Source of the DNA: an uncultured Clostridia bacterium
GTDB taxonomy: Bacteria; Bacillota; Clostridia; Christensenellales; UBA1242
Direction of reading: 5' to 3'
Length of the DNA stretch: 43,159 bases
Assembly: GCA_944372505.1 (NCBI GenBank)
Contig: CALVZK010000008.1
Coordinates: 1 to 43,159, forward strand
Shown: positions 294-34,220 of the stretch, piece after piece
Position numbering within the stretch: position 1 is the stretch's first letter
How the letters are laid out: every line of letters starts with the position of its first letter
Notes under the pieces: generated by a model
Seen by the model: the letters and a program-made list of their open reading frames with translations, nothing else
What the model was told of the DNA's origin: nothing
Database searches by the model: none
Position numbers and translations under genes: made by a program

Positions 294-1568
294 TCAATAA
301 ATTTGGTATTCAGTAATTTCAGTAATAATATCTGATTGCATCATTTTATCAAATTGTGCTGTTGCGTTTTTCCTTGTCTCACTTATACTAGATACATAAT
401 AATTTTCAGTTGTTTCAATATTTTTATGTCCTAACATATCTGCAACATCTCTTATTTCTACCCCTGAATTTAAAACCCTTGTAGCATAAGTTCCTCTTAA
501 ATCATAAAATCTACATTTTTCGATTCCTAATTCATCATGTATTATTTTAAAAGGATATTTAAGAATTGATGTTCCACTATATTTACCATTACTTTTCGTA
601 AATACTAAATTCAAATTTTTTTTATTCTTGGTAGATTCGTTTTTTTCAACAATTCTTTGTTCTACTACTTTACCATATTGATTTGTTACTTCTTCTAAAT
701 AATAATAAATATACTTGTTGCCATATAGATTTTTTAATTGTTCTTGCTTTTGTTTGTAATTTTTAAGAGCATTTAACAAAGTAGTGCTTATATAAATAGT
801 TCTTTCGCCAGACATAGTTTTGGGGCTACCTAAATACCATCTTCCTTTATTATCTTTCTTCTTATTATACACATTATGTTTAATATTAATTAAACCATTG
901 TCTAAATCTATATCATCCCATGTTAAGGCAAACACTTCTCCTGTTCTCATTCCCGTATAACATGATGTTAAAAAAGAACATGTAAAAGTATCATCATGTC
1001 TAAATCTATATAATATTTTATTTATTTCTTCTTGTGAGTATAAATGTTTCGGATCTTTTTTTGTACACTCAACTCTTGGTAATCTTAATGATAATGCTGG
1101 GTTATATTTTATAAAACCATATAAATTACAAGCATCTCTAAAAGTTCCTTTTAACACTTTTAATATATTTTTAAAATATGATCTAGAAAAAGTGTATTTA
1201 TCGCACACTTCAGTAATAAACATATTTAATCTTACACTTGTTATTGTAGATAATTTATAAAGTCCTAAACTAGGTCTTATATATTTATTAATAATCGTTG
1301 TATATTTATGTATTGTTGTATATTTTAAATTAGATTTACAATAATTATCTAACCAATAATCTAAATAATCACTATAAGATATTTTACATTCTTTAAATGG
1401 AACACCTGCATTTAAATATTCTGCATAAGCTATATTTCCAGCTTCGGTAGCTTCTTGCTTTGTTTTAAAACCAGACTTATTTATAAATTTTCTTTTCCCT
1501 CCTTGTGAGGCTATTTCAAATCTATATTGATATACATTTCCTCTTTTAGAAATTATTAATTGAGACAT
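294..1568 (-). CDS. int: Tyrosine recombinase / ICE integrase
   Basis: Site-specific recombinase that integrates and excises the element. The 424 residues show the usual three parts: an N-terminal AP2-like arm-binding domain (about 1-58), a SAM-like core-binding helical domain (about 63-165, with YTTIHKYTTIINKYIRP), and a catalytic domain (about 175-410). Catalytic residues visible are R208 (TGMRTGE), K250, the D-L-R box with R358 (FYDLRGTYATR), H381 (GHKNIETT) and Y390 or Y391 as nucleophile. The first HxxR residue is Asp, which is common in this family. Length is normal for Tn916-type integrases. The start ATG lies inside the 3' end of the excisionase gene (23-bp overlap), so the two are translationally coupled, the Tn916 xis-int arrangement. 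Confidence 0.95.
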   Translation of the reverse strand: MSQLIISKRGNVYQYRFEIASQGGKRKFINKSGFKTKQEATEAGNIAYAEYLNAGVPFKECKISYSDYLDYWLDNYCKSNLKYTTIHKYTTIINKYIRPSLGLYKLSTITSVRLNMFITEVCDKYTFSRSYFKNILKVLKGTFRDACNLYGFIKYNPALSLRLPRVECTKKDPKHLYSQEEINKILYRFRHDDTFTCSFLTSCYTGMRTGEVFALTWDDIDLDNGLINIKHNVYNKKKDNKGRWYLGSPKTMSGERTIYISTTLLNALKNYKQKQEQLKNLYGNKYIYYYLEEVTNQYGKVVEQRIVEKNESTKNKKNLNLVFTKSNGKYSGTSILKYPFKIIHDELGIEKCRFYDLRGTYATRVLNSGVEIRDVADMLGHKNIETTENYYVSSISETRKNATAQFDKMMQSDIITEITEYQIY

Positions 1569-8837: not shown

Positions 8838-10514
8838 CTACTTTTCTCTATAATAATCATTTATTTGTTGCTTTTCTTGGTTTGATATATTTTCTATTTC
8901 ATCTCCTGTTCCTTTTCTTTTCACATCATTATTTTTGTCGTACAAAATATATTCTTTATCATCTACTAAATATATGATTCCTCTTTTATCATAACTTATC
9001 CAAGCAACATTTTCTTTAGAAACATAGATATAATATTCACTATAAGGAATTCTAATACAATATTCTAATTTTGTTGAGCGAGATTCATCTATCATTTTTT
9101 TACTAATAGATACACTTTTTATAAACCCTTTTTCATTTTCAAGTGATATGGCTTTAATTTTTTCTAACTCACTTGCTTTATTTTTTAGATAGCTTAAATA
9201 AGCATAGCTTTTATTTACATTTATTTTCATTTTATTTGCTTCAGCAATAATATCTTTTACTTCATCAATCGATTCAACTTCTAATTCTTTCTTAGCATCT
9301 AAAAACATTTTTACTTCCTTTGAAGGTTCTAATTCTATTTGTGATAATTCTTGTTGTTCTATAAATGAATCATATATATCTAAATATTCTAAATATAAAT
9401 TACATAAAGGCACTCTTAATTGTAATGTCTCATTTTCAGAAAATAATTCTTGATATTCTGCTTCTCTATTTGCTATATCACTTTTTATCTTTTCAATTTG
9501 TTCTTCTAATGTTTCATATCCAAAAATCTTGTTTTCATTTAAAAAATTTATTGTATCTACTAATTGATGATAACGCCTTATTTCCATATATCTCGAATTA
9601 TAATATTTAAAATATTCATTATTAGAATCTAAATCTTTCATACTATACAATATTGATTGTTTAGATCTAATCGCTAGTTCATTATATAAAGATAAAATTT
9701 CACTATCAGTATTATCTAAATTATATTTTTCAAAATCTATAACTATATTATTTTTTCTTTTTAATTTAAAAAAATCTTTTAATGACTCTTCACTATATTC
9801 ATCGCCTAAAGTTTTGATACTGACAAATCTTTCTTTTCCGTATGGACGAACACGAATATTTTTACCAGATTTAATTTGATAACCATCATAGGCTAATTGT
9901 TCTAACATTTCATCGAAAGAAAAGCATATAGCCTTTAATTTTTCAATCTTTTCGGTAATTTGCTGTCGCCATGTTTTTGTGGCTTCACTATATAAATACT
10001 TACTTTTACCAAACCTTCCAATCTTGGGAGCATCTTCAATTATTTTTAGTCCATACTCAAGTGCAATCTTATCACTCATATCTCTAAGACCATATAATCC
10101 TTCAATTGGATTAGCAAGTCGATCTTCAAGTTTTCTTCCTTTCATGTTGACTGCATTTATTACATAATGATTATGAATATGTAATCTATCAGTATGTGTT
10201 GCAACAATTACTTGAAAATCAGGATATAATCTTTTAACTAATTCTACCCCCATCTGATGAACCATTTCAGGTGTTAAATTTTTTTCTTTTGGATCAAAAG
10301 ATTGATAACCATGATAACAAGTACGACTATTATTATCTTCTTCAATATGAAATTTATCATTATTAACTTTCATTTCATAAGCAGCAAATTGGGAAGAACA
10401 ATTAATTCCTGTAACTAATGTTCCTCCCTTTGTTTTTTCAGAATCTTTTATATAATTAATACAATCAATTCTACCTTGCACTCCATGTACTGACCATCTA
10501 GCTGTAGTTGGTAT
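8838..10514 (-). CDS. Conjugative relaxase (MOBP type), probable AUA start
   Basis: Nicks oriT and pilots the transferred strand. The metal-binding triad is in ATHTDRLHIHNHYVIN (H112, H114, H116 with the start used here) and the probable nucleophile is Y21 in CINYIKDSEKT. The middle (about 290-470) is coiled coil; the end carries an RIP..YYIYV..W..YDKN module also seen in the primase. The first ordinary start is GTG at 10479-10481, but the frame stays open upstream and adds PTTARWSVHG, matching the family N-terminus (M-x-T-T...). The only usable codon there is ATA at 10512-10514, preceded by AAGAAGGTGAT (10519-10529) at ideal spacing; a stop lies just upstream. With that start it overlaps mobC by 17 bp and has 558 aa. 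Confidence 0.9.
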   Translation of the reverse strand: MPTTARWSVHGVQGRIDCINYIKDSEKTKGGTLVTGINCSSQFAAYEMKVNNDKFHIEEDNNSRTCYHGYQSFDPKEKNLTPEMVHQMGVELVKRLYPDFQVIVATHTDRLHIHNHYVINAVNMKGRKLEDRLANPIEGLYGLRDMSDKIALEYGLKIIEDAPKIGRFGKSKYLYSEATKTWRQQITEKIEKLKAICFSFDEMLEQLAYDGYQIKSGKNIRVRPYGKERFVSIKTLGDEYSEESLKDFFKLKRKNNIVIDFEKYNLDNTDSEILSLYNELAIRSKQSILYSMKDLDSNNEYFKYYNSRYMEIRRYHQLVDTINFLNENKIFGYETLEEQIEKIKSDIANREAEYQELFSENETLQLRVPLCNLYLEYLDIYDSFIEQQELSQIELEPSKEVKMFLDAKKELEVESIDEVKDIIAEANKMKINVNKSYAYLSYLKNKASELEKIKAISLENEKGFIKSVSISKKMIDESRSTKLEYCIRIPYSEYYIYVSKENVAWISYDKRGIIYLVDDKEYILYDKNNDVKRKGTGDEIENISNQEKQQINDYYREK

Positions 10515-11280
10515 TTAAATCACCTTCTTTTAATAAATAATAATTAGAATTAATTTCTTTAGAAAAATCTTTTGCAGAATTTTCATTTTCAAATTCCATA
10601 ACAATCCCAAAATGTAGAATATTATCTTCTCTATAAAAAGATATTAATAATTTCTTTTGCATTGCTATATTTCTACATAGATTCACTTTATTGATAAAAT
10701 CTTCTTTATTAATATCATCTAGTACATAACTATAAGTGTGATTGTTTATATAAACTATATATTTAGGTTTAATGTTAGGTCTATTTAGATTAGATGGTCT
10801 TACTAAATAATGCTGATAATTAGTATTCATTATTCTCGTATAAAAAGAATCATCAATTTTATATTTTTCTATCATACCTAATCGCTGTTGAATTTTTTGT
10901 TCAGTATTAACAGATAAAATTGATATTACAAGATTAGATAATTTTTTTATCATTTTAATTATCTCTATATTTTGTTTACTAATTGTATCAATATCCTTTT
11001 TATTTAGTAAATGATTATTTAATATAACTTTTTGCTCATTTAATATTTCTCTTAAAACTTCAATAAAATTACTTATTGCTTCACACAATTCTTGTTTACC
11101 TTCTATATCTTCAATGTAAATATTTTCATATATACATGCTGCCCTAATATATTCTGCTAAACAATCTCCGAATCCATATTTAATAGCTTTTTCTGTTAAA
11201 ATTTTTCTTTCCTCTTCGTTAAGCATAACATTAATTTTTCTTCTTCTTAATTTATTATATCTTTCTTCTTGAGAGTTCAT
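10498..11280 (-). CDS. MobC-like relaxosome accessory protein with extra C-terminal domain
   Basis: 260 aa. Residues 10-50 (RRRKINVMLNEEERKILTEKA...LAEYIRAA) are a ribbon-helix-helix/MobC-type DNA-binding start, followed by long helices (55-125) with the repeated I..NNHLLNKKDID...I.MIKKLSNLV pattern of plasmid mobilisation MobC proteins. These bind near oriT and help the relaxase melt the nic region. Residues 160-250 form an additional alpha/beta part (KYIVYINNHTYSYVLDDINK... LLISFYREDNILHFGIVMEF) that usual MobC proteins lack and that I do not recognise. Starts at ATG inside the preceding gene (26-bp overlap) and its 3' end contains the relaxase ribosome-binding site. Confidence 0.78.
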   Translation of the reverse strand: MNSQEERYNKLRRRKINVMLNEEERKILTEKAIKYGFGDCLAEYIRAACIYENIYIEDIEGKQELCEAISNFIEVLREILNEQKVILNNHLLNKKDIDTISKQNIEIIKMIKKLSNLVISILSVNTEQKIQQRLGMIEKYKIDDSFYTRIMNTNYQHYLVRPSNLNRPNIKPKYIVYINNHTYSYVLDDINKEDFINKVNLCRNIAMQKKLLISFYREDNILHFGIVMEFENENSAKDFSKEINSNYYLLKEGDLNTNYS

Positions 11281-13246: not shown

Positions 13247-14504
13247 ATTCTATCTCCATATCCTCTATAATTTCCTTTTCTTTTATTTCTTTTTCCTCCT
13301 GTTCGTTAAGCATTTCTTTTACTTTATCAAAATCAATTAATTCATTAAGTTTATACCAAAAATTTTGCACATCAGTTTTATTTTCTAAGTCTAATATATT
13401 AAAATCTGAAACTAATTTATTCGAATGAACTTTATAATTCTTACATAAAATATAACTTTCTAATTCGTTAGAATATCGCTTATAAAAGAAAGCTATTTCA
13501 TCTTTATATATCTTTATAGAATACAATTTTATATTGCTTATATCTGGGTTAATAATATTTAATTCATCACAAATATCTATAAATTTCTGTGATTTCTGAT
13601 AGTTATATTTTCTTAATTCTAGCTTTTCATAAGCTGATAAAATATTAAAATTTGGTTTAAAAACACCTTCATTTACTTTTTTTTCAAATTCTTTTAATTC
13701 TAAGGAATAATACTCTTGCCCCAATGGTCTTTTAGAGTCATAAATATCAAAGCAATTATTATTTATACCTAAAACTAATCCAATACAAGTTATATTATCA
13801 TTATTAACTTCATCAGTTATCACTTCATTTAGTCGAAGCATATTTATTTTTTTTCCAATAAAATTATTCACATTTAATTTTCTTTGATTAATTACATTAT
13901 TTATAAATCTTTCTAATCTATCTTTAAATACACTTTTATAATTAAATTTCCCAAAGGCATATTCGTATCTATTATATACTTGTTTACCTTTACCAAAATA
14001 TAATTGATAATGATAAGAAGAACTGGAAGGTATTTTAACAATCTTCCAATTTTCTTCTTTCATTATTTCACAAAATTCTTTTATATTTTTAGTATATTTG
14101 AATTCTTTTAATGCATCAACAATTATCAAATCCTCTTCTGAAATGTTTATTTCTTTTTTTTCTTGTCTTAAAGTTTTTGTAACTTCTTTACCAAGTTTAC
14201 TTTCAAAAAACGATGATATTCCTCTATTGTATAAGGATATATTAGTAGGTTTAGATTTTATCCTTTTCAAACTGCCAGATGACATAGAATTCACATCAAG
14301 ATCAAGATTTTGATAAGATTGATTACAATCTAATTTAATGACTTTTTCTGTTAAAGGATTATAATCATAATAATAAACAGTCATCGAACAATCATATTTA
14401 TTCCAATAATCTTTTAAGTTTTCCCATTGTTTTTTTTCATTATTCTGATTATCTATTCGTAACCAATGGGTATATATATAATGCCTACTATGAATACTAC
14501 GCAT
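13239..14504 (-). CDS. Hypothetical protein in the leading region
   Basis: 421 aa, not recognised. The start MRSIHSRHYIYTHWLRIDNQ and the segments WENLKDYWNKYDCSMTVYYY and IISSFFESKLGKE look like a folded N-terminal domain; LDIYDSKRPLGQEYYSLEL-type strands occur in the middle; the C-terminus is a Glu/Lys run ending EDMEIEYE. No signal peptide or membrane segment. ATG with GGAGGT, overlapping the ArdC-like gene by 8 bp. The end of the reading frame encodes the GGAG of the next gene. Function unknown. Confidence 0.7.
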   Translation of the reverse strand: MRSIHSRHYIYTHWLRIDNQNNEKKQWENLKDYWNKYDCSMTVYYYDYNPLTEKVIKLDCNQSYQNLDLDVNSMSSGSLKRIKSKPTNISLYNRGISSFFESKLGKEVTKTLRQEKKEINISEEDLIIVDALKEFKYTKNIKEFCEIMKEENWKIVKIPSSSSYHYQLYFGKGKQVYNRYEYAFGKFNYKSVFKDRLERFINNVINQRKLNVNNFIGKKINMLRLNEVITDEVNNDNITCIGLVLGINNNCFDIYDSKRPLGQEYYSLELKEFEKKVNEGVFKPNFNILSAYEKLELRKYNYQKSQKFIDICDELNIINPDISNIKLYSIKIYKDEIAFFYKRYSNELESYILCKNYKVHSNKLVSDFNILDLENKTDVQNFWYKLNELIDFDKVKEMLNEQEEKEIKEKEIIEDMEIEYE

Positions 14505-15453
14505 ATTCTACCTCCATATCTATTTCATTAATTTTTTCCTTATTTTTGGATAAACTTTTATCTTCTAAATATGAGGCAATTTTATTTGCATCGGAAATTG
14601 CATTAAACAATTCTTGAGGATTTTGTTTTAATATATCTAACCAATTTTTAACATAGGCTTTATGATTTTTTAAATGTTTTGAATCGGCTTCAAGGTGAAA
14701 CTTTTGCATTAAAAATGAACTACAAATTTCTGCTCTAAGTTCTTCTTTTGCATATTCTTCTGATGCAAATGTTTCTTTGATTTTTCTATTTAATCTTGAC
14801 TCATGACCTGTTGCATGAGCTAACTCGTGCAATTGTGTTGCATAATAAGAATATACTGTTTTAAAACTATTTGATGGTGGTAAAATCACTTCATCTTTTA
14901 TTGGATTATAATATGCTTCATCACCTTTTTCAAAGTAACTGACTTTTAAATTTTTTATAATATTGCTTATATATTCATTGTTAATAATTTCTTTATTTCT
15001 AGTCGGTGGATTATTAATCAAACCATCAATTAAATCGCCATTAAAAACTATATAACTCATTCTTGATAACTTATAATCTTTTTCTTTATCAGGATCTTGT
15101 TCTATAATTTTATTATATTCATTAAAACTAATAATTCTGTTAGTCTCTTTATTTTTCATACCCCAATATTCAACAGGTATCCCTTGACCTTTAGCATCTT
15201 TAATAAAATTCCATTTATTTTTTTTCATTTGATTATAAGTTATCCATCTATTTTCTTTATAGTTTCTTTTTAAAGATATATACGATAAATATAAATTATT
15301 AATTCCATTATACTCAATACCTGTTACTCCATTTATTGGTATATTTGTCATCCACATTTTTTCCCATGGAATATTCCCTTCTTCTAAACATTTAATATAT
15401 TCATTTATTAAATCTTGTCTTGTTTTAGGTAGTTTATTCACTATTTTCACCAT
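14497..15453 (-). CDS. ArdC-like antirestriction protein (ssDNA-binding plus zincin metallopeptidase)
   Basis: 318 aa. N-terminal DUF1738/ArdC-N domain (about 10-140), with the family sequence PWEKMW, GIEYNGINNLYLS, RWITYNQMKK and GQGIPVEYWG. C-terminal zincin domain with QLHELAHATGHESRLNR (H209, E210, H213) and a downstream YAKEELRAE glutamate (E238 or E242). ArdC proteins bind single-stranded DNA and protect incoming DNA from restriction, and are typical of leading regions. The ATG at 15453 lacks a clear ribosome-binding site; GTG at codon 5 has GGTGA 6 nt upstream and may be the true start. Overlaps the coiled-coil gene upstream by 20 bp and the next gene by 8 bp. Confidence 0.9.
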   Translation of the reverse strand: MVKIVNKLPKTRQDLINEYIKCLEEGNIPWEKMWMTNIPINGVTGIEYNGINNLYLSYISLKRNYKENRWITYNQMKKNKWNFIKDAKGQGIPVEYWGMKNKETNRIISFNEYNKIIEQDPDKEKDYKLSRMSYIVFNGDLIDGLINNPPTRNKEIINNEYISNIIKNLKVSYFEKGDEAYYNPIKDEVILPPSNSFKTVYSYYATQLHELAHATGHESRLNRKIKETFASEEYAKEELRAEICSSFLMQKFHLEADSKHLKNHKAYVKNWLDILKQNPQELFNAISDANKIASYLEDKSLSKNKEKINEIDMEVEYA

Positions 15454-27180: not shown

Positions 27181-29124
27181 TTATAAACTATCTAATAATT
27201 CATCAGTAAAACTTTTTGTAGATAATATTACTTCATCATTCTCAATTGATAATTCTTCAGTTTTTGTTAGTTCTCTAGCTTTAAATGTATTATTAATTTT
27301 AACAAAACCTAATCCTAAATCCTTAAAGAGTTGTTGCTTTCTTCTTATATCTTTAGTTTTCTTTCTTTCTTCAGCATGTTCATATCTGTTTTGAATTGTT
27401 TCTTTTTCGTTCCAAGATTCAAATAATTCTTTATATCGAGGATGCTTAGATAGATCATACATTTTTGAATAAAAAGGTCTTAAACCAGATACGAGTAAAA
27501 TACAATAACCTTTTTCCATTCTTGCTATTTCATCAATAAAAGCCAATTCTCTTCCAACTATATCCCAATTAGTAGATGAAGAACCTTGTTTTGAATATGT
27601 CCTTCCAGAAGATTTTTTGTACCAAGTTTTTTTTCCAAGCATACTAGACATATATTCTAATGTTTCCTTGCTTCTTGAACCCATAAAAAGAATATAATCA
27701 CAACAGTCTAGTGCAGTTTCCCAATTATCCTTATAAACTTTTTTTAACTGAGATAAGCTTTGCAAACAAGTGGTTATACCACAATTTAATCCTCTTACAT
27801 AAGCAAGATTTTCAAGATATCTTGGTATAACACCTAATTGACTCCATTCATCACAAAAAATTTGACAAGGCGTTGCCAATGAACCGTTATTATGACTTGC
27901 GTTATAATCAATAATTGAAAATATTTGAGTGTACATAATACTTGCTATAAAATTAAATGTTGAGTCATTGGGGCTATTAATAATAAAATAAGCAATTCTA
28001 CCTTCATCGCCTTTACCACCAATTCGATTTAATTCCATTGTATCATTTACGGTTATTCCTTCTAATTCAGCAATATTGAATGGTGATAATCTTGCTGAAG
28101 CTGTAATAATAATTGTACTCATCATTTTTGTGGAAGAAGCTGATACTTTAAAATGTTTCCATTGCTTAATGCCAATATTTGTTGGATCTTTTGATTCCCA
28201 TTTTTTAAACATATTTCCTAAAGTAGAATTACCATCTTTATCAGGTTCAGCCAATCTAATTAATTCCAAAACAGTTTTAAAATTCCTATCTTTTTCATCG
28301 TAATTAAAAATAACATAATATATTATTGCTTGTAAAAACATAGATTCGCATCTTTCCCAAAATGGATCTCCAGTATTGCTTTCAATAGTTTCTGACTTAG
28401 TATTAAGCATTAATGTATTGATAAGTGTCATTACATCATCTTCTGCTATCCATTCTTCACCTTCTGAATCTTCCGAAACATACCTGTTTATTTTTTTTAT
28501 ATAAAGTAATGGGTTAAAATGATCTGATTTCCATTTTTCTACTAAATTTAAAACTCTAATATCATAGCCTTTATTTATTAATGACATTCCACAATCACGG
28601 AGCAATTCTCCTTTAGGATCAGTTATGATGATAGTTTCTCCATCAGCATTTAAAATGTTTGGTTTAAAATAATATCTACTTTTCCCAGTCCCAGGTTTTC
28701 CCAAAAGAATAACATTTCTATTTCTTTTAGATACTTTCATATCTTTTGCAAACATTTCTGTAGATGTAAAAATCTGATTTTTTATTAAATCTTTATCCCT
28801 AAATTCCAAAGTGTTTTTAGGTTCTTCCCATTCAGAACTTCCATGCGTATTTTCCTGTATATTTTTTTTATTTTGTGTCATATAAGTATAAATTATCATT
28901 AAAACAAATAACCCCACAAATAGTGAGGTTGTCAATGTTTTAAGATTCAAAATAAGAGGTGTCGTCAGAATATGGAGTTTATTCAATGCTTCAGTTAAAT
29001 ACTCCATTTTAAATTCACCATTCATTTCTACAAGGCTACTTACTCTTAAAGTGTAATAAAAGGCAATTACAAATATTATACAAATAATCCATTTGTTACT
29101 TCCATGATTTCTTTTAACGAGCAA
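27181..29124 (-). CDS. VirD4/TraG type IV coupling protein
   Basis: 647 aa ATPase that links the relaxosome to the secretion channel. Two membrane segments (about 12-30 and 60-81), Walker A at 142-150 (GKPGTGKSR), IITDPKGELLRD after it, and Walker B CQIFCDEWSQLG (D425/E426). The C-terminus (after 560) is helical and acidic. TTG start overlapping the end of the PcfB-like gene by 11 bp. A full-length member. Confidence 0.95.
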   Translation of the reverse strand: MLVKRNHGSNKWIICIIFVIAFYYTLRVSSLVEMNGEFKMEYLTEALNKLHILTTPLILNLKTLTTSLFVGLFVLMIIYTYMTQNKKNIQENTHGSSEWEEPKNTLEFRDKDLIKNQIFTSTEMFAKDMKVSKRNRNVILLGKPGTGKSRYYFKPNILNADGETIIITDPKGELLRDCGMSLINKGYDIRVLNLVEKWKSDHFNPLLYIKKINRYVSEDSEGEEWIAEDDVMTLINTLMLNTKSETIESNTGDPFWERCESMFLQAIIYYVIFNYDEKDRNFKTVLELIRLAEPDKDGNSTLGNMFKKWESKDPTNIGIKQWKHFKVSASSTKMMSTIIITASARLSPFNIAELEGITVNDTMELNRIGGKGDEGRIAYFIINSPNDSTFNFIASIMYTQIFSIIDYNASHNNGSLATPCQIFCDEWSQLGVIPRYLENLAYVRGLNCGITTCLQSLSQLKKVYKDNWETALDCCDYILFMGSRSKETLEYMSSMLGKKTWYKKSSGRTYSKQGSSSTNWDIVGRELAFIDEIARMEKGYCILLVSGLRPFYSKMYDLSKHPRYKELFESWNEKETIQNRYEHAEERKKTKDIRRKQQLFKDLGLGFVKINNTFKARELTKTEELSIENDEVILSTKSFTDELLDSL

Positions 29125-30322: not shown

Positions 30323-33300
30323 TTATGCAGCCTCCTTTTCGTATATCGGAACATTTAAATCTATTTCTTCATTAGATAATAAATTTTCTCTATGTTCAGT
30401 TAAATAATCATATACTTCTTTACTATCAATTTGTTTTATATAGTTATTGCTATTATCGTGAAAGACAAGTTTCTCATCCTTATTCATTTCTAAAATAACA
30501 GAATCTATTGTTATTTTAGTTTTTATGATATTAACACTTATATATCCTTGCTTTTCATCAACCACTATTGGAATATTTATAAAATTTGAATTAAACTGAC
30601 ATTTATTTTTAGGAATTGTAATAGATAAAACTTCTTTTTTATTAGATGATGGATAAAACATTTTCATATATCTTTCTATTTCATTATATTGTAATTTTTT
30701 TATGTAAGTTTTTTTATACCCATCAAGGGAATATTTAGATATTCCAGTATTGAATATGTTTTTTCTAGGACATACAATCAAATAACTTCGATCATCTGTC
30801 CAATTACAAATCTTTTTAGTAGCGAAAATTAATTCAGAAGAATTGAGCGTCTTAATATAAAATCCTTTATCAGTTTCTAAATAAATTTTTGATTTATAGA
30901 CTTTACTAATTGGACTCTTATATTTTGAAATATATGTATTATCGAATATCAAATCATTAGATGTAACACCAATTTTTTCTATATTCTCATCTGGAATAAG
31001 CTTTTCTTTTTTTTTAGTTTTATCTTCCCAATTAATTTTTAATTCATTAAATTCTTTATCACAAATATATTCTCCATTTTTATCATATATTGGATATGTT
31101 TTATTTGGAATTAATTTTGTGTAGAATAGTTCTCCATTATCAACCCAATCACACTTACTTTTATCAATATACATATATTCTTTTGCACCTGTATTTGGAA
31201 TTCTAACAAAGTAAGATTCTTCATTTTCAAATTCTGGTACTAATAAAACTTGATTTACTGAAAAGGAAAACTCTTGCTCTAATTCATTATTATCTTTTTC
31301 TATATTTATACTATTTTTTATTGGTGATTCTTTATCAGTTATTAAATTCTCCTTTTCAAGTTTAATATTGTTATCCAAATTATTATAAAATAAGATTGTC
31401 TTATAATTACCTGTTCTACCTTTAAATTGATTATCAATGAACGATTTATCTTCATTCAAAAAAAGACTTCCAAACTTAAAGAAATCCATTTTGTTTTTAT
31501 TTAAAAACATTCTTTCCTTAATATTTTCTTTTAAAATATCTAAACTCTTATTCTTATATGATAAAATACCATCTATATCGCTTAAATCATTTATTATATA
31601 AAGTTCTTCGACTTCTTCTAATGCCAATTTTTCTTTATCATTTAAACTATTCTCAAATTGCTTTATAACTTGTTGTATTTGAGAATCTTTTAGTTTTACC
31701 TTAGCAGTTCCATGTGAGTTTTTTATATAAGTCTTTTCAAAAACATTTATATATTTAAATCTATTTAATGATTCATAATTATCATAATCTTTATTAGTTT
31801 TCAAAAAATCTTCTAGCAAAATTTTATTATTTAAAATTGACTTATCAGATAAATACTTATTTGCATTTGCATTAAAGAGTGTTATTAATTTTTGTTCTAT
31901 AACATCTTTATTAGTTTCAAAATACATAATCATAACTTTATCATTTGTCATATCTACTTCTTTTTTTAATTCTAAATATAAATAATTAATCATAGCTTTT
32001 GAAGCAAAATTGTCAAAAGCATTTTCCTTTTTTTCTATTTTTTTAGGATACATAATTTCATTTAATTCATGTTTATTAAATTCTGAATTGTTCATTATAT
32101 ATTCTTTAAATAAAGATTCCTCGTAAGTATTGGTTATTAATTTATCATTTTTTAAATTTTTAAATATAGAATAAATGTTTTCGACATTTAAACTTTTATT
32201 TTGAAAATATTTATACTTTAACAAATAATTAAAAGCAGAGACTTTAGATTTCTGAATTTTCATAAAATCTACATTTGCCTCTGCCATATCACCAAAATCT
32301 TTATAATTTCCAATTTGAGAAATATCTAATACATCAACTTTAAAACCTTTTTTTAACAATTTGGGAATAATTCTTAACATTGCATTACGCCCAGCATCAT
32401 CATTATCTAATGCAAGTGTAATTGATGAGTTATTTCTTTTTATTAAATTTAATTGATCATCTGTAAGTGCAACACCCATTGTAGCAATTACATTTTCATA
32501 TCCTACTTTTCTTGCTCCAGCAACATCCATGTATCCTTCCACTATAATCAATTCATTATTATAGGCTAAAGTTTTAGCATTATAAAAGTTATAAAGCAAT
32601 TTACTTTTTTGAAAAAGCACATTTTCAGGAGTATGAAGATATTTAGGCTTTTCATCACCCATTGATCTACCGCAAAATGAAACTATATTTCCTTTTTCAT
32701 CATGTATAGGTATCATTATTCTATCTTGAAAAGTCTCATATAAATTTCCATTATCATCAATTTTTAAATAACCTAGTTCAATCAATGAACTGGTAGGTAT
32801 TTTTTCATTTTTTTCTGCCAGTTTTAATAGTTGACCTTTCATAGAATAACCAAGATTCAAATCTTTTATTTGTTTATCATCTATATTTCTTTTATAAAGA
32901 TAATTTTTTCCTTTTTTATCTAGTGCTGTTAAATTATAATGAAATAATTTTCCTAAATATTCATTAACTTCTAATAGTTTTCTATCTTCATCATTATACT
33001 TTTTATAAACTGTTGTATATTGATTATTATATAAATTATTTTTTATTTTTGAAATATCAATATTTAAATGACAAATTTCCACAACTTTTGCTATAGCTTC
33101 ATTTACAGAAATTTCTTTGCCATTTATCAACTTTTCATATTTTTGAATAAAAGAGATAGCATTTCCTGTTACTCCACATGCAAAACAAGTTGCTATATTT
33201 TTTTTAGGATTAACTATGAAACTAGGGTTATTATCATTATGAAAAGGACACAATGTTTTATTATGATTCAACTTTAATCCATAATAGTTCAAGACTTCTA

Positions 33301-33340
33301 CAATACTCGCTTGTTTAAGAACTTCACTATATAGATTTAT
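30323..33340 (-). CDS. DnaG-type primase, probable AUA start
   Basis: Element-encoded primase for replacement-strand synthesis. CHC2 zinc finger (C31, H34, C52, C55; LCPFHNDNNPSF and ATCFACGVTG), then a Toprim domain (IVEGYMD, E268; ALDNDDAG 312-317). About 650 C-terminal residues are unassigned but include an RIP..EYMYI..W..YDKNG module shared with the relaxase. The first ordinary start (TTG 33290-33292) cuts into the CHC2 fold. The open frame continues as NLYSEVLKQASIVEV, matching the family start, and its best initiator is ATA at 33338-33340, preceded by AGGTAGGTG (33348-33356). No ATG, GTG, TTG or CTG occurs before the upstream stop. With this start it is 1005 aa. Confidence 0.9.
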   Translation of the reverse strand: MNLYSEVLKQASIVEVLNYYGLKLNHNKTLCPFHNDNNPSFIVNPKKNIATCFACGVTGNAISFIQKYEKLINGKEISVNEAIAKVVEICHLNIDISKIKNNLYNNQYTTVYKKYNDEDRKLLEVNEYLGKLFHYNLTALDKKGKNYLYKRNIDDKQIKDLNLGYSMKGQLLKLAEKNEKIPTSSLIELGYLKIDDNGNLYETFQDRIMIPIHDEKGNIVSFCGRSMGDEKPKYLHTPENVLFQKSKLLYNFYNAKTLAYNNELIIVEGYMDVAGARKVGYENVIATMGVALTDDQLNLIKRNNSSITLALDNDDAGRNAMLRIIPKLLKKGFKVDVLDISQIGNYKDFGDMAEANVDFMKIQKSKVSAFNYLLKYKYFQNKSLNVENIYSIFKNLKNDKLITNTYEESLFKEYIMNNSEFNKHELNEIMYPKKIEKKENAFDNFASKAMINYLYLELKKEVDMTNDKVMIMYFETNKDVIEQKLITLFNANANKYLSDKSILNNKILLEDFLKTNKDYDNYESLNRFKYINVFEKTYIKNSHGTAKVKLKDSQIQQVIKQFENSLNDKEKLALEEVEELYIINDLSDIDGILSYKNKSLDILKENIKERMFLNKNKMDFFKFGSLFLNEDKSFIDNQFKGRTGNYKTILFYNNLDNNIKLEKENLITDKESPIKNSINIEKDNNELEQEFSFSVNQVLLVPEFENEESYFVRIPNTGAKEYMYIDKSKCDWVDNGELFYTKLIPNKTYPIYDKNGEYICDKEFNELKINWEDKTKKKEKLIPDENIEKIGVTSNDLIFDNTYISKYKSPISKVYKSKIYLETDKGFYIKTLNSSELIFATKKICNWTDDRSYLIVCPRKNIFNTGISKYSLDGYKKTYIKKLQYNEIERYMKMFYPSSNKKEVLSITIPKNKCQFNSNFINIPIVVDEKQGYISVNIIKTKITIDSVILEMNKDEKLVFHDNSNNYIKQIDSKEVYDYLTEHRENLLSNEEIDLNVPIYEKEAA

Positions 33341-33350
33341 AAAATAACAC

Positions 33351-34220
33351 CTACCTTTCTATTTCTTCTTCTACTTCATTAGTGTAATCATTCATCAATT
33401 CAATAGTAACTTTACATTTATATAATAAACTATCGACCAATTCATTAAGTTTATTTTTAATCAAATTAGAAGATGAAACTATTTCTTGTACTGGAATAGT
33501 TGCTCCTTTGTTAAATGATTTAATAATGTCATTTGCGTATTCATCAACATTAAATTTTTTTGCGTAATTGATTAAACCGTAAATGATAGTTGAGACATTT
33601 CTAGATTCTACTTCAATCAAAAAAACAAACATCTGTTTTTCTTTGAATTTTACCTGTAATTCCCAATCTTTTCCTTTTTCAATTACATTCCAATTACACT
33701 TTTCTATCAATTCTTTTAATTGACTTATTGACAATTTGTTAAGGTCTTCAATCTCTAAGCCACTATAATATTTGCCAATTTTTAATTTTTTAAAAATTCT
33801 ATCAATATCAGAAAATCTTGTATTAATATGTGATTTTGACAAAAATTCAGATTCTAATTTTCTAAAAGAATTACTATAGTAATATCTATAACCAGATATA
33901 TCATAATGTGCAATATCTCCACAAGCATTCATAAAAAAATCATACATATCTTTTGTCAAAAATTCTAATGAATCCTCTTTTTGAAGTTTTCTATATTCTT
34001 TCAATATTTTATTAAATGAATATATTGTATTTCCTTCATATAAAATAGTTGCACCTATTTTATTATCATCAATACATTTTTGAATTGTTAATCTATCAGA
34101 TGTTTCATCTCCATTTAAATCAAGATTTTCAATTAATTTAACTGTCCTATTAATTGTTGCCTGATTACCATATATATTTATTCTTTTATTATTTTTTAAT
34201 ACTTCACTATGATTTTTCAT
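33351..34220 (-). CDS. Hypothetical protein upstream of the primase
   Basis: 289 aa, not recognised. Soluble, mixed alpha/beta: IYGNQATINRTVKLIENLDL, YDISGYRYYYSNSFRKLESE, WELQVKFKEKQMFVFLIEVE. Ends NDYTNEVEEEIER, an acidic tail like those in the leading region. ATG with AGGA. Ten bases from the primase start, with the primase ribosome-binding site overlapping its stop codon. Confidence 0.7.
   Translation of the reverse strand: MKNHSEVLKNNKRINIYGNQATINRTVKLIENLDLNGDETSDRLTIQKCIDDNKIGATILYEGNTIYSFNKILKEYRKLQKEDSLEFLTKDMYDFFMNACGDIAHYDISGYRYYYSNSFRKLESEFLSKSHINTRFSDIDRIFKKLKIGKYYSGLEIEDLNKLSISQLKELIEKCNWNVIEKGKDWELQVKFKEKQMFVFLIEVESRNVSTIIYGLINYAKKFNVDEYANDIIKSFNKGATIPVQEIVSSSNLIKNKLNELVDSLLYKCKVTIELMNDYTNEVEEEIER

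Follow-up and report, generated by a model that had tools for sequence, protein, structure and literature searches.

Candidate AUA/AUU start codons behind extended Shine-Dalgarno sequences in the primase and relaxase genes of a putative integrative conjugative element

The primase gene of a putative integrative conjugative element, carried by an uncultured Clostridia bacterium, appears to be translated from an AUA codon that sits behind an extended Shine-Dalgarno (SD) sequence. Initiation at the AUA itself is inferred, with strong support from comparison with related elements; that comparison also establishes the position of the start, the lack of an ordinary start codon and the conservation of ATA or ATT at the primase start; the pairing of the SD comes from calculation. 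The reading we favour joins translation from AUA, an extended SD, discrimination by IF3, selection on the primase start and restraint of DNA-processing enzymes, and we consider this combination probable. The analysed DNA, a stretch of 43,159 nucleotides referred to here in its entirety as the window, carries an integrase (PF00589), a relaxase (PF03432), a coupling protein (PF02534) and a VirB4-type ATPase (PF19044), and the putative class of the element was read from these genes. Two of them are located as follows.

294 to 1568, minus strand: tyrosine integrase (PF00589, E 1.9e-22)
27181 to 29124, minus strand: VirD4-type coupling protein with a TTG start (PF02534, E 1.2e-47)

The window also encodes, at 14497-15453, an anti-restriction protein of the ArdC type that has a metallopeptidase domain.

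The primase start in the window

The primase lies on the minus strand, and the proposed start is surrounded by the following features.

33338 to 33340, minus strand: ATA, proposed primase start; no ordinary start upstream in frame; ATA or ATT in nine of nine intact copies
33348 to 33359, minus strand: extended SD GAAAGGTAGGTG of the primase, -16.1 kcal/mol; the predicted pairing may include adjacent bases; holds the TAG of the preceding ORF
30323 to 33340, minus strand: primase, 1005 codons and stop as read from the ATA; Pfam Zn_ribbon_DnaG, DNAG_N and Toprim
33290 to 33292, minus strand: TTG, codon 17 of the primase, rejected as the start; weak SD of -3.5; TTT in L026
33351 to 34220, minus strand: preceding ORF of 289 aa; its stop TAG at 33353-33351 lies 10 nt upstream of the ATA; no Pfam match

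Across the junction the frame reads TAG AAA GGT AGG TGT TAT TTT and then, from the proposed start, ATA AAT CTA TAT AGT GAA GTT. An earlier note on this DNA had placed an AGGTG 7 nt upstream of the ATA and had seen no ATG, GTG, TTG or CTG ahead of it in the frame. The coordinates and the spacing proved correct (AGGTG at 33352-33348, ATA at 33340-33338), and reading the frame from the upstream stop to the ATA returned none of the four codons. Of the 39 window start sites compared, this one has the strongest predicted SD duplex; its energy, like all SD energies given here, was calculated with the usual 16S tail as the anti-SD, the host's own 16S tail not being found in the loci analysed. Predicted RNA structure at the starts was unremarkable (z of -0.29, 1.24 and -1.40). 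On its own, an ATA or ATT placed behind an SD is no rarity in this genome, with ATA making up 4.0% and ATT 4.8% of triplets in 400 kb of the host. What goes beyond chance, judged from the aligned copies, is the absence of an ordinary start combined with an ATA or ATT that is kept in all nine intact primase copies.

The earliest ordinary in-frame start is the TTG at 33292-33290, and translation beginning here would leave the earlier residues untranslated. Codon 17 is also TTG in the related copy L102 and is ATG in L139, as such a start would allow. However, codon 17 of L026 is TTT, and the first ordinary start of that copy is codon 43, past the CPFH zinc-binding motif; the SD of the TTG in the window is also weak. 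Positions 7-96 of the 98 in Pfam Zn_ribbon_DnaG align to residues 5-97 of the ATA-started primase, which places codons 5-16 inside the primase domain, and the alignments of the solved primases 2au3 and 1d0q begin at residues 6 and 10 of this protein, respectively. A start at the TTG appears very unlikely. Gene finders that accept only ATG, GTG and TTG truncate the primase inside the zinc domain and the relaxase at residue 12.

The primase start in related elements

A search of genome contigs identified L025, from a separate assembly and with 98.8% DNA identity over 22.9 kb, and L026, with 63% protein identity. Whole-genome searches, 1975 in all with overlapping sets, added primase copies in G541 (two), G890, G946, G526 and G869. 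Our count covers the nine copies with an intact start region, the window among them; copies truncated ahead of the start (L101, L138/L154, L141 and L148/L157) and matches to chromosomal dnaG were left out of the comparison. Among viral contigs we found four weak relatives of the Toprim region for the primase and none for the relaxase, and the matches from plasmid searches were all below 60% identity.

Position 1 of the primase is ATA in four copies (the window, L025, L026 and L103) and ATT in five (L102, L145, L137, L147 and L139), and is ATG in none of the nine. The copies represent five lineages, with L102, L137, L145 and L147 counted as one, and are 49-67% identical to each other in the N-terminal part; the calculated SD duplexes range from -13.3 to -16.1 kcal/mol across all five. 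No ordinary start lies between the stop and position 1 in eight of these copies. L103 is the exception: eight codons ahead of its primase start stands an in-frame ATG, with an SD of only -1.2. The start of L103 is shifted one codon outward, yet it is ATA and at SD spacing, and we count this as evidence for a start codon, as a conserved internal isoleucine would not predict such a shift. The L102-type primase contains two further non-canonical candidates: one is an ATA that lies two codons upstream and has an SD of -8.2, the other is the CTG of codon 3.

To describe the residues behind the start we compared codons 2-16 in six pairs among the window, L026, L102 and L139. Differences at codon positions 1/2/3 number 3/1/4, 1/1/6, 6/2/9, 2/2/4, 6/1/6 and 5/3/5, such that second positions vary least, or tie, and third positions vary most, or tie, in all six. 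The bias is weak in two of the pairs, L026-L139 (6/1/6) and L102-L139 (5/3/5), and with this qualification the pattern is that of coding sequence, with codons 2-16 conserved as protein. Ahead of the ATA the SD codons are common to the window and L026, and the last three codons read Cys-Tyr-Phe in the window versus Arg-Tyr-Asn in L026; the six codons before the start share no codon in the other five pairs, to which an indel contributes in the pairs with L102. The earlier note's proposal that the primase starts at the ATA and not at TTG 33292 is upheld by the ATA or ATT in all nine copies together with the conservation of residues 2-16. That note had also reasoned that an ATA kept in relatives without the residues that follow would speak against the start; we found these residues to be conserved.

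From one strain alone it would be conceivable that the ATA was introduced by faulty sequencing or assembly, or that an ATG recently mutated to ATA and so inactivated the gene. The same junction is present, however, in the separate assembly L025, and seven further copies have ATA or ATT. The long primase frames of about 1000 codons are also intact in the window, L025, L026, L137, L139 and L147, which argues against both an error and inactivation. Recurrence of the arrangement in relatives bears out the earlier argument that no sequencing error is involved, and we assign this explanation a negligible probability.

A start codon would also be unneeded if a +1 frameshift at AGG TAG joined the preceding ORF to the primase. 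The primase frame is indeed +1 to the preceding ORF in the window, L025 and L026, and GAAAGGTAGG is conserved in these copies. In L102, L145, L137 and L147, however, the preceding ORF ends at a TAG in the primase frame, and a +1 shift would miss the primase; the shared junction is also absent in L103. A programmed fusion calls for a constant frame relation, and we observed +1 in one type but, in the other, two ORFs in a single frame interrupted by a TAG. A conserved frameshift fusion is ruled out because the frame relation differs in the L102 type, and frameshifting as the route to the primase is highly improbable.

The relaxase start and Shine-Dalgarno strength

In this element the relaxase start is arranged like that of the primase, as the earlier note had claimed. 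On the minus strand an AGGTG is followed after 6 nt by an ATA at 10514-10512, and a TAA at 10517-10515 stands immediately before the ATA.

10512 to 10514, minus strand: ATA, proposed relaxase start; the same in L080, and ATG at the exact position in the G000:C13 copy
10518 to 10527 (to within one or two bases), minus strand: SD region AGAAGGTGAT of the relaxase, -11.9 kcal/mol
8838 to 10514, minus strand: relaxase, 558 codons and stop as read from the ATA; Pfam Relaxase PF03432, E 3.4e-28
10498 to 11280, minus strand: NikA-like ORF, the 3' end of which overlaps the relaxase start; PF21983 at 24.6 bits, under the cut-off of 27

We counted ten relaxase copies of at least 66% identity, leaving out L082 (33%) and the further matches L083, L084, L086 and L088. 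Position 1 is ATA in six (the window, L080, L099, L136, L132 and L133), ATT in one (L081) and ATG in three (L134, L135 and L087). Among the seven copies without ATG, a stop stands directly ahead of the start in the window and L080 only. In the remaining five (L099, L136, L132, L133 and L081) a GTG stands in frame three codons ahead of position 1, to which L132 and L133 add an in-frame ATG two codons upstream. These upstream codons fall within the SD and have SD energies of their own of -0.3 to -3.3; the five copies are ambiguous and are by themselves no proof of a non-canonical start. The window and L080 have a non-canonical start with no usable ordinary start, and the three ATG copies do not. 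On this comparison the non-canonical start of the relaxase is real, but less conserved than that of the primase. The host also carries a second relaxase (L087, at G000:C13:3450-5117; also L089), which is 68% identical and has an ordinary ATG; it sits on a 10 kb contig beside other genes resembling those of the element.

The calculated strength of the SD differs between the two kinds of relaxase start, with energies of -3.8 to -6.5 in the ATG copies versus -9.9 to -15.0 in the non-ATG copies. The distant relaxase L082 (33% identity) combines an ATG with a strong SD of -10.3. Because of the ATG copies and L082, the relaxase needs no special codon, and the trade-off between SD and codon is not universal. 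In L105 the element family shows a third such gene, orf132 (L105:4142-4537, on G541:C44), which seems to begin with an ATT that follows a strong SD. Its SD energy is -12.4 with this ATT, -6.8 with the GTG of L026 and -6.7 with the ATG of L106; no match to orf132 was found in the window. Over relaxase and orf132 together, SD energies run from -3.8 to -6.8 in the ATG and GTG copies and from -9.9 to -15.0 in the ATA and ATT copies. This contrast, between nine non-canonical and five canonical lineages, gives an exact p of 0.001, or 0.0008 with L082 added and 0.1 for the relaxase alone; the lineages were hand-chosen and strong SDs are frequent in ordinary ATG genes of the element too, so the contrast is valid among homologous copies only.

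The earlier note had gone on to propose a shared, selected translational control of DNA-processing proteins. Selection for a non-AUG start of the primase is plausible, because ATG occurs in none of its nine copies. The word shared is supported in part at most, as the relaxase has ATG in three of ten copies and the codon is therefore conserved across the family for the primase only. Translational control of these proteins is suggested by analogy.

The host genome and a possible role for IF3

We scanned 400 kb of contig C1, which is 32.5% of the host genome and holds 281 ORFs of at least 120 aa. The laxer of two duplex rules sought an SD-placed ATA, ATT or ATC at least four codons ahead of the first ordinary start. 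Among the 1220 upstream codons of the 281 ORFs, of which 10 had an SD, it returned infC, with ATT, and a doubtful ATC ORF, and no ATA; applied to the 34 ORFs of the window it returned exactly the primase and the relaxase. The strict rule returned one ATC from the 281 ORFs of the 400 kb and missed infC, and in a crude scan of the same 400 kb for exact SD matches (259 ORFs of at least 150 aa) ATA and ATT were not in excess over other codons. The suggestion in the earlier note that the host be scanned for SD-ATA genes thus led to infC and gave no sign, in these 400 kb, of general SD-ATA use, a reading we reject. Within this part of the genome infC, the IF3 gene, is by our scan the only clear other non-canonical case. 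In a host ORF of 168 codons at G000:C1:349005, an ATC is placed behind an SD and no ordinary start precedes codon index 52; this ORF is possibly a gene fragment.

A changed code in which AUA is read as methionine is disfavoured, since primase copies use either ATA or ATT for the internal isoleucine at codon 13, which favours isoleucine. A tRNA scan of the 400 kb gave two tRNA-Met(cat) and one tRNA-Ile(gat), a kind of scan in which an AUA-reading tRNA is not distinguishable.

Genes for IF3, infC, start at AUU, AUA or AUC and are autoregulated. The SD-placed start of infC is non-canonical in all four hosts compared, being ATT in G000, ATC or ATT in G101, ATC in G102 and ATA in G541. In G102 an in-frame ATG lies five codons downstream of the SD-placed start, with an SD of -1.9, and in G101, G102 and G541 an in-frame GTG lies within the SD. 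The likeness of these four genes to the primase and relaxase is a start codon not ending in G together with a strong SD. The element genes differ from infC in that they do not encode IF3, so there would be no autoregulatory loop, and the host could control the element but not the reverse.

In the mechanism we propose, the AUA of the primase, and of this element's relaxase, would be read by the ordinary initiator tRNA, kept in position by an unusually long SD helix. IF3 discriminates against AUA and AUU, so initiation would be slow and would be expected to increase when IF3 runs short in relation to 30S subunits. The excerpted text of PMC4611024 describes discrimination by IF3 against triplets that lack a 3' G and, in addition, against mRNAs in which the SD is too extended, and that of PMC10158994 describes lower yield in vitro at higher IF3 with weak third-base pairs such as AUU/CAU. 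Selection would retain the weak codon on the primase, and the relaxase may reach a comparably weak start through either AUA or AUU with a strong SD or AUG with a weak one. The likely purpose would be to keep DNA-processing enzymes low outside transfer. For the primase start we infer both low output and dependence on IF3; the output of primase and relaxase is probably low or IF3-controlled, because a rare weak codon is combined with a very strong SD, as in the infC gene of the host.

It is also possible that AUA and AUU are a fixed low-level setting without IF3 sensing, in which coupling to the preceding ORF helps translation, and we give this slightly less than an even chance. The stop of the preceding ORF lies inside or beside the SD, 10 nt before the ATA in the window and L026 and 9 nt before the ATT in the L102 type, as coupling would suggest, and the weaker SDs in the ATG and GTG copies of relaxase and orf132 are consistent with a fixed setting. 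It leaves unexplained, however, why a weak SD is combined with ATG in none of the nine primase copies, although a plain low setting permits that combination. More doubtful is the view that the element senses the balance of IF3 to ribosomes in its host, such that a fall in IF3 relative to ribosomes would release the DNA processing needed for transfer. The primase, and in some lineages the relaxase and orf132, would carry both of the features disfavoured by IF3, and release would occur in step with the infC gene of the host.

To our knowledge AUA and AUU starts occur in very few bacterial genes. A mobile-element gene, OrfB of IS911, was reportedly found by Polard et al. in 1991 to initiate at AUU in combination with programmed frameshifting, and in this use of AUU it resembles the primase; the pairing with frameshifting differs, as frameshifting is contradicted for the element primase by its relatives. 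Our literature search, partly judged by title and the start of the abstract, found no report of non-canonical starts in relaxases or conjugative elements. This kind of start is already known, and its use in the primase of a conjugative element appears unreported in the literature searched. In Staphylococcus aureus, according to the excerpted text of PMC13009471, AUA is the start codon of infC and ccpN and AUU that of cvfC1, in each case behind an extended SD motif; in reporters AUA and AUU are weaker than AUG. As Firmicute genes with an extended SD and a conserved non-canonical codon, ccpN and cvfC1 are alike to the genes described here; as presented in that excerpt they are chromosomal, encode a repressor and a small protein, respectively, and were tested by ribosome profiling and reporters, whereas the primase and relaxase belong to a conjugative element and are described from sequence. 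If our reading is true, mobile elements can restrain DNA processing via start-codon discrimination, here in five primase lineages, and the conserved non-AUG start of the primase would offer a direct way to ask whether transfer responds to IF3.

Elsewhere in the element, the VirB4-type ATPase and a 272 aa ORF (window 25412 and 26809) start with TTG in the window and with ATG in L026, and the ATPase start is also ATG in L025. Ordinary starts of the element thus drift between TTG and ATG, whereas the primase codon never turns ATG.
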